In this document: piece after piece, positions 1,125-58,290 of the stretch
Layout of the letters: every line of letters starts with the position of its first letter
Position numbering within the stretch: the stretch's first letter is position 1
DNA from: Halorussus vallis
Lineage (GTDB): Archaea; Halobacteriota; Halobacteria; Halobacteriales; Haladaptataceae
DNA length: 64,000 nucleotides
Assembly (NCBI RefSeq): GCF_024138165.1
Contig: NZ_CP100000.1
Span: 3,286,001-3,350,000 of the forward strand
Direction: 5' to 3'
The notes under the pieces: model-generated
The model's database searches: none
What the model saw: only the letters and a program-made list of their open reading frames with translations
Told to the model about the DNA's origin: nothing
Position numbers and translations under genes: made by a program

Positions 1125-1216
1125 ACCGCCCCGAAAGCCCCCGACCGCTCGCGGTCGGCCCCTTTCAGTCCCGCCCTGCCAGTTGGTCAGCCGAGCGTTC
1201 CTCTGGATTGGTTCAC
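1125..1216 (-). repeat. structured repeat, miniature copy 1
   Basis: Read on the minus strand it has the shared 5' box (GCTCGGCTGACCAACTGG, then GGGACTGAAAGG) and the shared 3' box (GGGGGCTTTC). The whole interior is replaced by a simple hairpin, CCGACC-GCGAGC-GGTCGG. The hairpin with its GAAAG/CTTTC closing pair spans 1133-1166. It appears to be the outer helix of the family with the side hairpin and long arm deleted. It lies upstream of truD on the same strand. Confidence 0.75.
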
Positions 1217-1383
1217 AGGCGGTTTCGAAGGCTGAACGCCACACATGGCGCGCGCTGGCGCGGTCCCGCGGTTTGGGTCCGCGCCATCTTCGTGCGAGGG
1301 ATGAGCATCGCAGGCCGTCAGGCCGAGAAGCGCAGTCGGTTGGGGAGGGTGTGGCCTGCGGTTGCGGTGCTGTTTGGGTGGAT

Positions 1384-1503
1384 GAAAGGGGCCGGCCGGT
1401 CGCGTATACTTTAGTCGCCTCTGCAGGCCACTATTCTCGCCGAGCGCCGCAGGCGCGAGGCATGAATATCCTGCAGAGCGACCGCGAGCGGGCGGGGGCT
1501 TTC
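1384..1503 (+). repeat. structured repeat, full copy 2
   Basis: Begins GAAAGGGGCC and ends GGGGGCTTTC. The long arm pairs GTCGCCTCTGCAGG with CCTGCAGAGCGAC, leaving one unpaired C. The apex is GCC-GA-GCGCC-GCA-GGCGC-GA-GGC, flanked by the conserved CTATTC and GAATAT. The outer helix is damaged (GGCCGGTCGCG against CGCGAGCGGGC) and the 5' box is degenerate, so this may be a decaying copy. It lies on the opposite strand to its neighbours, head to head with copy 1. Confidence 0.75.
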
Positions 1504-1579
1504 GGAGTCATCACTGTCTTGGCTGTCTCGGAGGGTGCATGGCGAGCAGATGGAGCTTTTTGGCTGTTCTCGGTGTCCA

Positions 1580-3993: not shown

Positions 3994-4632
3994 ATGATAC
4001 TGTCGGACGCCGACATCCTCCGCCGTCTGGAGGACGGCGACCTCGCGGTCGAACCCTTGGACGACCCCGACCTGCAGATTCAACCCGCCAGCATCGACCT
4101 TCGACTCGGACGCGAGTTCCTGGAGTTCCAGCACGCCAACATCCCCTGCATCCACCCGGACAGCGAGCAGGAGGTCTCGGAGTACGTCAGCGAGACCGTC
4201 ATCGACGACGGGAACGAGTTCATACTCCACCCCGGCGACTTCGTGCTCGGCACGACGAAAGAGCGCGTCGAGATTCCCGCCGACCTGCTGGCCCACGTCG
4301 AGGGCCGGTCGTCGTTCGGCCGCCTCGCGGTGGTCATCCACGCCACCGCCGGCGTGGTCGACCCGGGCTACTGCGGCCAGATTACCCTCGAACTGTCGAA
4401 CCTCGGCACCGCGCCCGTGGCGCTCAAACCCGGCACCCGCATCTCTCAGCTCATCTTCACGGAACTCAAATCGCCCGCCGAGCGCCCCTACGGCGAGGAC
4501 CGCGGCTCGAAGTACCAGGACCAGTCGGGTCCCCAGGCCTCCCGCATCGGCGGCGACCACGAGTTCGGCGGCGACCAGAAACGGACGTCGGGCGCCGACG
4601 GGAAGACCGGCGGAGGCTCCACCGAATCATGA
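3994..4632 (+). CDS. dcd: dCTP deaminase
   Basis: 212 residues. Deaminates dCTP to dUTP on the route to dTMP. Motifs are [10 protein letters not shown] at about 30-39, [17 protein letters not shown] at 104-120, and [14 protein letters not shown] at 123-136, with Glu133 at the position of the catalytic glutamate. A Gly/Asp-rich tail of roughly 35 residues follows the core, which is typical of haloarchaeal homologues. Its last codons overlap the ATG of thiR by 4 nt, so the two genes are probably translated from one message. Confidence 0.95.
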
Positions 4633-11122: not shown

Positions 11123-11265
11123 ACTCGGGTCTCCGCAGGGACGCGGGAAAAATCAGTCCATCTCCAGCGCAAGCGCGCACCTTCGAGTGTCGGCGTAACC
11201 GCGAAGGAGAACGTTTCCGACCGCTCGTTACGGAATACGACTACGACCGCGAACGAGAACGCTTC

Positions 11266-11510
11266 GAAAGCCCCCACCCGCTCGCGGTCGCTGGCCGGGA
11301 TATCCGGGTCGGGCCTCGCTCTGCGGCTTCGCCGCTCTGCCTCGCGGTTGCCCTCGCTGTCGCTCGGACAACCGCGCGTGCGGCCCTCCCCGAATAGTGG
11401 CCCGCCCAGGCGACCACGTCCTTCGGACGCGAGCGGGCGGCCCCTTTCAGTCCCACCTGCCGGCTGGTTAGTGGAGCGCTTCCGGTGGATTGTGTCACCG
11501 AGCGCCTTCC
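11266..11510 (-). repeat. structured repeat, full copy 3 (expanded apex)
   Basis: The core runs 11448 down to 11266 (183 nt), with the 5' box to about 11510. On the minus strand: 5' box GGTGGGACTGAAAGG, outer helix GCCCGCTCGCG/CGCGAGCGGG, side hairpin CGTCC-GAA-GGACG, and long arm GGTCGCCTGGGCGGG paired with CCCGGCCAGCGACC. The apex is enlarged by about 60 nt and still ends in GCGGC-GAA-GCCGC. Conserved CTATTC and GGATAT are present. It starts 109 nt after the pantoate kinase stop on the same strand. Confidence 0.85.
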
Positions 11511-11556
11511 GTGGACTGTCCGACCGAGTACTCATCGTCCGACGCTTCGCGCCGAC

Positions 11557-24644: not shown

Positions 24645-24850
24645 GGCGACGCTCGGTGATTCGGGCCACGGGACGCGCTCGGCGAATCAACCGGCGGGTA
24701 GGACTGAAAGGGGCCGCCCGCTCGCGTTCACGTGGTCGTCTCAGCAACCCCTATTCGGTGAGCGCCGGCAGGCGCGAACCGGATATGTTGCTGAGCGACC
24801 GCGAGCGGGCGGGGGCTTTCGAGGCAGTCAGGGTTGCTATTGTTGCCGCA
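24645..24850 (+). repeat. structured repeat, full copy 4
   Basis: The core is 24706-24820. 5' box GCTCGGCGAATCAACCGG then GACTGAAAGGGGCC; outer helix GCCCGCTCGCG/CGCGAGCGGGC; a very short side loop; long arm GGTCGTCTCAGCAAC paired with GTTGCTGAGCGACC. The apex is CGGT-GA-GCGCC-GGCA-GGCGC-GA-ACCG with conserved CTATTC and GGATAT. The 3' box is GGGGGCTTTCGAGGCAGTC. It lies downstream of the MATE gene and convergent to gatB. The remaining 200 bp to gatB shows nothing recognisable. Confidence 0.9.
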
Positions 24851-25044
24851 GTCACGCCGTACTGATTCTTAGCAGTCATACTTCCTGTCGCACGAACGCT
24901 TAAATCGGAAACCGCGACCAAAACTCGACGTGACCTGAGAACGGCCGCGAGGGAGCCTCGGCGGGAGCGCGGCGCACCCCTCGCGAGTCGGACGCCTACA
25001 ATTCGGAAAAGCGCCGCCTGTTCGCAACGAACGACGAGAGTCGC

Positions 25045-26541
25045 TCAGTCGTCGGCTTCGTCCAGTCGCTCGCGGAGCAACTGGTTCACCGACCCGGGGT
25101 CGGCGCTTCCGCCGGTCTTCTGCATGACCTGCCCGACGAGGAAGTTGAGCGCGCCGCCCTCGCCGTCGTAGTAGTCCTCGACGGCGTCGGGGTTCTCCTC
25201 GATGGCCTCGGTGACCGCGCCTTCGACCTGGCCCTCGTCGGCCTTGCCGAGTCCCTCGCGGTCGATGATGGTTTCGGGGTCATCGCCCCCGTCGAGCATC
25301 TCGCGGAGCACGACCTCCTCGGCGTTCTTGGTGGTAATCTCGTCCTCGGCGACCAGTTCCACGAGGTGCGTGAACTCGTCGAGTCGGTCGTCGACGTCGG
25401 TGATCTCCATGTCGCGGTAGTTGAGTTCGCCCAGCAGGTTGTCGGCGACCCAGGTCGCCGCGAGGTCCGGGTCGTACTCGCTGGCGACGTCCTCGTAGAA
25501 GTCGGCGACCTGTTTGGTGGAGGTGAGCTTGCTCGCGGCCTCCCGGCTCAGGCCGTACTCCTCGCGGAATCGCTCGCGGCGGGCGTCGGGGAGTTCTGGA
25601 ATTTCGAGCTTCTGCTTCCAGTCGCTGACTTGCAACGGCGGCAGGTCGGCCTCCCGGAAGTAGCGGTAGTCCTTCTCCTCCTCCTTCGAGCGCATCGAGA
25701 CGGTGATGCCTCGGGACTCGTCCCAGTGGCGCGTCTCCTGTTCGACCTCGCGGCCCCGCTGGACCGCGTTCTTCTGGCGAGTCGCCTCGTAGGCCAGCGC
25801 CTTCTCGGCGCCCTTGTGGCTGGAGATGTTCTTGACCTCGGTTCGGTTGGCCGACGCGAGCGTCTCCTCGCCGATGGCGCCGTCCTCGCCGACCTCGTCG
25901 CCGGGCACGACGCTGAGGTTGGCGTCGATGCGGAGCGAGCCGTCGCGCTGGCTGTCGAAGACGCCGAGATACTCGAGCACCTCCTCCAACTTCGCGAGGA
26001 ACGCCCGGACCTCGCTCGCGCCGCGGAAGTCGGGTTCGGTGACGATCTCCATCAGCGGGACGCCGGCGCGGTTGTAGTCGACCAGCGTGTAGTCGGCGGT
26101 GTCGATGTTGCCGCCCTGGTGCTGCAGGCTGCCGGGGTCCTCTTCGAGGTGCGCGCGCTCGATGCCGACGGTGCGGCGCTCGCCCTCGACTTCGATCTCG
26201 AGTTCGCCGTCCTGGCAGACCGGCGCGTCGTACTGGGTGATCTGGAAACCCTTCGGGAGGTCGGGGTAGAAGTAGTTCTTCCGGTGGAAGGTCGTCTCCT
26301 CGGGGATGTCGGCGTCGATGGCCTTGCCGACCTTGACGGCCGACTCGACGGCGGCCTCGTTGAGCACCGGGAGCGCGCCCGGCAGGCCGAGACACACCGG
26401 ACAGGTGTGGGTGTTCGGCTCGTCGTCGGCCACGTCGGTCGAACACCCGCAGAAGATCTTCGTGTCCGTCTCCAGCTGGACGTGGACCTCGAGTCCGATG
26501 ACGACCGCGAGGTCCGATTGCTGGACAGCCTGAGCAGTCAT
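25045..26541 (-). CDS. gatB: Asp-tRNA(Asn)/Glu-tRNA(Gln) amidotransferase subunit B
   Basis: 498 residues. GatB carries the kinase-like site that activates misacylated Asp- or Glu-tRNA for amidation with ammonia from GatA. Seen: VIGLEVHVQLETDTKIFCGC at the N-terminus, CPVCLGLPGALPVLN with CxC and CxxC zinc ligands, FHRKNYFYPDLPKGFQITQ, and HLEEDPGSL. The C-terminal YqeY-like helical tail binds tRNA (LNFLVGQVMQKTGG). CCTTTTAACG sits 28 nt upstream of the ATG. gatA and gatC are not in this window. Confidence 0.97.
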   Translation of the reverse strand: MTAQAVQQSDLAVVIGLEVHVQLETDTKIFCGCSTDVADDEPNTHTCPVCLGLPGALPVLNEAAVESAVKVGKAIDADIPEETTFHRKNYFYPDLPKGFQITQYDAPVCQDGELEIEVEGERRTVGIERAHLEEDPGSLQHQGGNIDTADYTLVDYNRAGVPLMEIVTEPDFRGASEVRAFLAKLEEVLEYLGVFDSQRDGSLRIDANLSVVPGDEVGEDGAIGEETLASANRTEVKNISSHKGAEKALAYEATRQKNAVQRGREVEQETRHWDESRGITVSMRSKEEEKDYRYFREADLPPLQVSDWKQKLEIPELPDARRERFREEYGLSREAASKLTSTKQVADFYEDVASEYDPDLAATWVADNLLGELNYRDMEITDVDDRLDEFTHLVELVAEDEITTKNAEEVVLREMLDGGDDPETIIDREGLGKADEGQVEGAVTEAIEENPDAVEDYYDGEGGALNFLVGQVMQKTGGSADPGSVNQLLRERLDEADD

Positions 26542-44689: not shown

Positions 44690-44760
44690 ACCAATCAACC
44701 GCCGACGAGAGCTACCCCGGCCAAACCACCGGGGGGCTTTCGAGACATCGTTCATCGCGG
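44690..44760 (+). repeat. structured repeat, degenerate copy 7
   Basis: Retains pieces of the 5' box (CAATCAACCGCCG) and the 3' box (GGGGGGCTTTCGAGACATCG, then GCGGTAACGGTCGTTCC). The centre is reduced to CCCCGG-N8-CCGGGG. The outer and long helices are lost. It starts about 60 nt after the gfcR stop on the same strand, the same position as the intact copies. The rest of the 283-bp gap shows nothing recognisable. Confidence 0.6.
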
Positions 44761-44916
44761 TAACGGTCGTTCCTGAAGTGCGTCGAGGATTTTCGAGGCT
44801 GTCGCAGTTACTTTGTCCTCCCTCGCCATTCACGAACGGCTCGTCACGCACGCGACCACACTCTCCCGCGAATCGCCAACGCAACTTCTTTGCGCGCCGG
44901 GCGCCTATCGGTGAGT

Positions 44917-54510: not shown

Positions 54511-54566
54511 TTTTGTTCGGGTTGGTGTTCGAGAACTGAGGGGGTAGTCGTTACGGCGACCACCTC

Positions 54567-54780
54567 GAAAGCCCCCGCTCGCTGGCGGTCGTTCCGCGGG
54601 ATATTCGGCTCGCGGCTTCGCCGCTCGCCGAATAGTGGCCCGTCGGAAGCGACCAAGGGCCTGCGGCCCGCCAGCGAGCGGCCCCTTTCAGTCCCACCCT
54701 TCCGGTTGACCGGCCGAGCACGCTCCGGTGGTTGGTGTCACCGCGCGCGACCGGACCGAAACCGGTCGCGCGCAACTCTC
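54567..54780 (-). repeat. structured repeat, full copy 5 (best-paired copy)
   Basis: The core is 54689 down to 54567; the 5' box extends to about 54750. On minus: GGTGGGACTGAAAGGGG; outer helix CCGCTCGCTGGCGG paired with CCGCCAGCGAGCGG; side hairpin GGGCC-GCA-GGCCC; long arm GGTCGCTTCCGACGGG with CCCGCGGAACGACC; apex ATTCGGC-GA-GCGGC-GAA-GCCGC-GA-GCCGAAT. Each helix differs in sequence from other copies yet pairs. It starts 110 nt after the SDR stop on the same strand. Confidence 0.92.
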
Positions 54781-58029: not shown

Positions 58030-58290
58030 GCTTTCGGGGTTCGAATCGGGACGCGCTCGGAGGGACAACTGCCGGGTGGGACTGAAAGGGGCCGCCCGCT
58101 CGCGGCCGAAGGCCGTGGTCGTCTCAGCGACCCCTATCGGGCGAGCGGCGGAGCCGCGAGGCGTGAATATCCTGCAGAGCGACCGCGAGCGGGCGGGGGC
58201 TTTCGAGACGTTTGTCGCATCGGATACAGTCGTTCACGGCGAGCGGGCGGTGGCTTTCGAGGCGGTCACTGCCTCGGTTGCCGTGGTGCT
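58030..58290 (+). repeat. structured repeat, full copy 6, inside the transporter operon
   Basis: The core is 58084-58204. 5' box GCTCGGAGGGACAACTG then GGTGGGACTGAAAGG; outer helix GCCCGCTCGCG/CGCGAGCGGGC; side hairpin CGGCC-GAA-GGCCG; long arm GGTCGTCTC...GAGCGACC; apex GC-GA-GCGGC-GGA-GCCGC-GA-GGC. The 3' box GAGCGGGCGGTGGCTTTCGA is repeated at about 58241-58270, showing local duplication. It lies between livG and livF in the coding direction. No gene in the 361-bp gap. Confidence 0.9.

Follow-up and report, generated by a model that had tools for sequence, protein, structure and literature searches.

We found that the structured stretch at positions 54566-54691 (minus strand) of the 64-kb window, the whole stretch of DNA that was analysed, is one copy of a non-coding intergenic element family that extends across the class Halobacteria and is without an Rfam model. 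The copies keep a constant hairpin fold under changing letters, and the folded strand therefore seems to matter. We give an even chance to the reading that the family is mobile but non-autonomous and that the fold of its sense strand is active, or tolerated, in read-through RNA.

Besides five full copies, the window contains a minimal copy and an orphaned 3' end. The preliminary description had listed five full copies with one common fold, and all five were located by the covariance model R2 with scores of 76-125 bits; the seed of R2 includes four of the five (not the 11265 copy), and thus the scores locate the copies and do not prove them. On the opposite strand, R2 gave 19-27 bits at four full copies, and the 11265 copy did not reach E=1. 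The strands had been mixed in the preliminary description, since the copies at 11265 and 54566 sit on the minus strand. Its count of five full copies was right, although it overlooked the minimal copy at 1132-1168 (-) and the orphan 3' box at 44732 (+). The exact 5' box GACTGAAAGGGGC had 5 matches in the window compared with 0.07 expected, and the 3' box, exact or with one mismatch, had 10 compared with 2.2.

The focal copy (E6, 54566-54691, minus strand, class A) scored 96.6 bits with R2 and 19.2 bits on the reverse strand. Its core spans CTGAAAGGGGCC to GGGGGCTTTC and consists of an outer helix, a side hairpin, a long arm with CTAT/ATAT and an apex framed by GA. The box search placed its 5' box GGGTGGGACTGAAAGGGGC, composed of the G-rich lead and the conserved box, at 54681-54699 (-) and its 3' box GGGGGCTTTCG at 54566-54576 (-); the 3' tail at 54534-54566 (-) had 10 pyrimidine-centred triplets out of 10 in the tail phasing count. 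The other full copies are also of class A. E7 (58082-58205, plus strand, 93.7 bits) is flanked by two ABC-transporter ATPase genes, the upstream one of the branched-chain amino-acid type, and is apparently a recombinant, judging by its long arm, which is complementary only in part (CTCAGCGAC versus CCTGCAGAG). E4 (24704-24821, plus strand, 124.9 bits) lies where a MatE gene and gatB converge. E3 (11265-11450, minus strand, 75.9 bits), located between the genes for a GHMP (pantoate) kinase and phosphopantothenate synthetase, carries an additional hairpin nested within the apex. E2 (1382-1504, plus strand, 103.5 bits) has the ATGAAAG variant of the 5' box and mismatches in the outer helix, and it is arranged head-to-head with the minimal copy E1 (1132-1168, minus strand, 41.6 bits), in which a short stem alone lies between the two boxes. 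The orphan at 44732-44774 (+), detected by box search and tail count, comprises a 3' box and a tail (10 pyrimidine-centred triplets out of 10) and lacks a core. The earlier description of one common fold needs correction in two details, the partly paired long arm of E7 and the mismatched outer helix of E2.

Several further features were noted. Repeat inspection and enriched words revealed 26-bp tandem units with CGGTG..CACCG hairpins at 11474-11528 (no strand assigned), upstream of E3. Upstream of E2, at 1247-1380 (+), there is a second repeat type, GGCGCGCGCTGGC..GCGAGGGATGAG..GTCGGTTGGGGAGGGTGTGGC..GCGGTGC. Resembling blocks are found between genes elsewhere in haloarchaea, for instance reversed in locus L209 and beside element copies in L072, L074 and L088; L204 and L210 have such blocks but no copy. 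Downstream of gatB, at about 24925-25045 (minus-strand reading), lies a GC-rich, folded-looking conserved stretch (GCGAGGGGCGCGCCGCGCTCCCGCCTCGACCCCTCGCGG..GATTTAAA), which is kept in most genomes of the family, has no Rfam match in the window and may represent a small RNA of its own. Additional hairpins, or another repeat such as AGTCGCAGCCCGCGCAGCGAAGCGAGCAGGACCGTC in L045, were nested inside the copies at L045, L046, L021 and window positions 11265-11450, as if the elements insert into one another. At position 4012 (-) of L038 the two boxes abut with nothing between them (GACTGAAAGGGGCCGGGGGCTTTCG), which represents either a deletion of the core or an empty acceptor site.

In the canonical reading each copy consists of a G-rich lead, GACTGAAAGGGGCC, a hairpin core and GGGGGCTTTC; in full, the order is the lead (mostly GGGYGGG), ACTGAAAGGGGCC, the core, GGGGGCTTTC and a tail of about 30 nt. 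The GGGNGGG lead was present in 138 of 223 copies (0.1% in the control). The cores are interchangeable between the boxes and belong to class A or class B, the latter being common outside Halorussus and having the conserved motif GACGYAAGCAC..GCGCAGCGAG. The GGGYGGG lead together with a GGG/GGG internal loop might fold into a quadruplex, to which the molar potassium of the cytoplasm would lend stability.

The window genome contains 62 exact 5' boxes (0 in the reversed-letter control), and the class A model matches it 71 times. Of the 28 genomes in this family, 20 have the gapped box pattern, and the class B model matched 221 of 292 Halobacteria genomes, representing 62 of 77 genera, many of these genomes with at least 13 matches. 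Plasmid copies occur in many genera, almost always without annotation. On plasmids of DL31, Halobacterium sp. DL1, Haloprofundus and Haloplanus (L302, L303, L304 and L305) about 470-560 bp separate a class B copy from the gene for a DNA-binding protein (with an OB-fold in DL31); no difference is apparent between the stretches of DL31 and DL1, which suggests a shared plasmid region. Viral contigs had no match to the gapped box pattern and phage records had none to the class B consensus. The preliminary description knew of no RNA family to which the copies belong, and this agrees with our searches: Rfam gave nothing at gathering score over the whole window, no element-overlapping match at E up to 10 in the surroundings of two copies, and none at E up to 1 at eight other loci. 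Among the papers searched for the box sequences, we found none that prints them.

The covariation supports a conserved fold. Among the 57 class A sequences 95.5% of the cells pair, and double changes were present in 199 cells compared with 61±11 in shuffled alignments and 13-39 when the partner was slid by 1-3 columns. The 60 class B sequences, which come from many genera, behaved in the same way, with 95.4% of cells pairing and 301 double-change cells compared with 88±9 (shuffled) and 27-55 (slid by 1-3 columns). As relatedness is controlled through the slid registers, it is controlled in part. The compensatory base changes described earlier thus exceed both kinds of control by far in classes A and B, and covariation at control level, which the preliminary description had named as the result that would count against it, did not occur. 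The constancy of the boxes beside changing stems was also supported. The class B helix GCACC/GGAGC, for example, swaps to GGACC/GGACC or GTAAC/GTAAC, mostly retaining the central A.A mismatch. Moreover, in copies presumed to occupy one site in two species the stems differ yet remain complementary.

The mismatches indicate which strand folds. In class A there were 49 G-U and 13 A-C mismatches (P = 5e-6), and because G-U outnumbers A-C, one particular strand is the one that folds; strand-specific folding is thus supported in this class. The class B counts were 32 and 19 (10 and 7 for clean pairs). Hence, the asymmetry is weak in class B and can be called firm in class A alone. In the first eight pairs of the outer stem, the register of which is alignment-free, the ratio of G-U to A-C was 35:13. 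The sense strand was also predicted to be more stable than the antisense strand by 4.1 (class A) and 2.5 (class B) kcal/mol, with P values that overstate independence because the family members share the difference. In single-stranded DNA, however, G-T is likewise better than A-C. The hairpin triloops (arms of at least 5) were of the c(GNA)g type in 65 cases compared with 5 for the complement, and the tetraloops included one GNRA and no UNCG. GNA loops form very stable mini-hairpins in DNA (PMC4686876). The loop and mismatch tests therefore cannot separate RNA from DNA, because both GNA loops and G-T pairs suit single-stranded DNA as well, and ViennaRNA calculations with RNA and DNA parameters did not separate the GNA loops by energy. 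The preliminary reading as a folded RNA is accordingly supported in part, for the fold and its strand more than for RNA as its material.

The position of the copies relative to genes was evaluated with our own simple gene caller, on which the following counts rest: of 216 copies, 2 fell within predicted genes, no position could be assigned to 13, and the others were intergenic, with medians of about 85-260 bp for the distance to the neighbouring genes; of 113 tandem copies, i.e. those between co-directional genes, 81 were in sense and 32 in antisense orientation. Judged from this arrangement in the genome, the orientation leans towards transcription of the folded strand. As 32 of the 113 are antisense, any RNA role would not be obligatory.

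The element is not a fixed RNA gene, and the occupancy of the tested gaps varies by species. The gatB gap contains a copy in the window genome and in none of the 27 other genomes of the family, and the gap between the pantoate kinase and phosphopantothenate synthetase genes is occupied, among the relatives, only in the window genome and G016. The latter gap (L203-L227) holds other inserted repeats in several genomes from genus g2, which is probably Haladaptatus, and it looks like an insertion hot spot. Several window-genome copies have at least one neighbour in common with copies in the sampled relatives, and such sharing between species implies that some sites are either long-lived or targets of repeated insertion. 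Most copies are single; the close pairs of the window genome are head-to-head in 6 cases out of 6, as are those pairs of the class-wide class B list that were checked by eye.

Downstream of the 3' box, the positions +5, +8 and so on to +32 are occupied by a pyrimidine far more often than the neighbouring positions, which amounts to about ten triplets. The sign of this phasing was positive in 54 of 54 informative window-genome copies, 83 of 86 copies in the named records and 32 of 32 copies in the MITE lineage described below, and every copy in the window, the orphan included, had 8-10 pyrimidine-centred triplets out of 10. Beyond +33 there was no positive phasing signal, and in the MITE lineage it was negative. 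Translation of the tail was considered and rejected: the phasing persists in 20 copies in which the first codon is an in-frame stop (0.29 compared with 0.33), and codons 2-11 contained 39 stops compared with 44±5 expected. We know of no family with a triplet-phased pyrimidine tail and of no mechanism that predicts one.

One lineage carries the core within an IS6-type MITE. In the metagenome-assembled genome QS_9_67_17 and its relatives, the conserved unit has sharp borders, GGYRGTGTTCAGATA and TATCTGAACACTACC, at a distance of about 217 bp, and these inverted repeats frame the core of the element. The 8 bases flanking the copies were identical at 4.48 positions of 8, compared with 2.30 in shuffled pairs (maximum 3.56 in 2000), and 9 of 25 copies had flanks identical at six or more of the 8 bases (0.7 expected). 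An IS6-family element of Haloglomus, with an IS6 transposase, shares these ends and shows an 8-bp duplication (GTCTGCTG). Since IS6 elements are characterised by 8-bp duplications and GG..TGTT ends (PMC7986276), the matching ends and duplications identify the carrier. The window copies differ in this respect. The best TIR matches in the flanks of the window and other Halorussus copies were about at control level, the window genome had no match to PF13610 (IS6 transposase), and a de novo search for other inverted ends around its copies gave best scores close to chance. The IS6 MITE identity of the window copies was therefore dropped on the inverted-end test. The possibility raised in the preliminary description, that the copies are a known kind of MITE, is thus borne out in part, in the QS_9_67_17 lineage.

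If the element is a mobile one with a fold that acts or is tolerated in RNA, IS6-like transposases would mobilise it in some lineages and some mechanism, IS6-like or not, in Halorussus. Read-through from neighbouring genes in the sense orientation would then produce a transcript that folds into a compact domain, and the copies would persist because the host tolerates this domain or uses it, e.g. as an insulating or stabilising spacer. Transcription, the benefit or tolerance, and the mobility of the Halorussus copies are the steps that we infer. A more strictly RNA-centred version, in which a class-wide RNA element has two cores, a tail read by a triplet-spaced binding protein and varied mobile-element ends that carry it from one gene to another, appears doubtful to us. 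Alternatively, the fold could work as single-stranded DNA that is exposed during replication or transfer and bound by a host or transposition protein; by analogy with REPINs, the ends of IS200/IS605 and integron attC sites, selection would then act on a DNA hairpin of one strand. The strand bias (65:5) of the c(GNA)g triloops, which are ultra-stable loops in DNA (PMC4686876), is consistent with this, as are the REPIN-like head-to-head arrangement of all six close pairs in the window genome and the invariance of the boxes at the hairpin foot. However, the number of Y1 transposases did not correlate with the copy number over 28 genomes (rho 0.10, P = 0.63), a genome with 34 copies (G011) had zero Y1 matches, the Y1 genes of the window genome are not surrounded by boxes, and the copies are biased to the sense orientation relative to genes. 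We treat a DNA role as a serious alternative, though well short of an even chance.

The mechanics of DNA could also generate covariation with no selection on the fold, if template switching perfects the palindromes and gene conversion swaps the arms. Correction of quasi-palindromes is an established mutational process, and mosaic copies such as that at 58082-58205, arms common to L002 and L032, and the hairpins nested at the tips all point in this direction. Nevertheless, such a process predicts equal numbers of G-T and A-C mismatches, whereas the class A ratio was 49:13, and it leaves the central A.A mismatch of class B, the GGG/GGG internal loop and the phased tail unexplained. We consider it improbable as the whole explanation. 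The invariant boxes and the median gene distances of about 85-260 bp would suit a plain regulatory site in DNA (a bidirectional promoter, a terminator or a protein-binding palindrome) with incidental hairpins, but covariation extends across most of the core helices, copies lie between co-directional genes, e.g. the two ABC ATPase genes, and no conserved TATA-like sequence was found within 120 nt upstream of the window-genome copies. This makes a plain regulatory site very improbable.

In being small, non-coding, palindromic and dispersed, the element resembles MITEs, SMRs and REPINs. The IS6-family MITEs include MITEHarch3 and MITEBth2 of ISfinder (PMC6807381) and two elements of 227 and 336 bp (PMC7986276). 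Only the QS_9_67_17 lineage shares their form (about 217 bp, GG..TGTT inverted ends, 8-bp duplications), unlike the window copies, which lack IS6 ends and reside in a genome without a PF13610 match, and the papers on these MITEs (PMC6807381, PMC7986276) describe neither a covarying core nor a phased tail. MITEHarch3, likened here by description only, might be a relative, as its name hints at a halophilic archaeon (PMC6807381), and the halophilic archaeon DL31 has a class B copy on a plasmid. Part of the family may therefore already be catalogued as a transposon. The SMR-A repeats of Haloquadratum walsbyi, about 110 bp long with prominent inverted terminal repeats and up to 54 copies, are transposase-free, with unknown mobilisation, and have their insertion sites in the palindromes of PATEs and IS605 elements (PMC3119063); the likeness to our element in size and copy number is one of description, not of sequence. 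REPINs and BIMEs with RAYT (PMC3116915, PMC2817692) are likewise intergenic, palindromic and of high copy number, with some inverted pairs, but the branched fold described here is much longer and has no link to a Y1 transposase. REPIN/RAYT identity and Y1 mobilisation were rejected on the missing correlation over 28 genomes and the Y1 loci without boxes. Finally, the covarying, strand-specific fold is like that of the structured RNAs in Rfam, although it matches no Rfam model.

Judging by this survey, this non-coding element is very common in haloarchaea, despite having no Rfam model, and its hundreds of covarying copies are a natural set for probing a folded mobile repeat in an archaeon. If the RNA role is true, the family would be one more major class of archaeal RNA; if the DNA role is true, it would represent a counterpart of REPINs in archaea.
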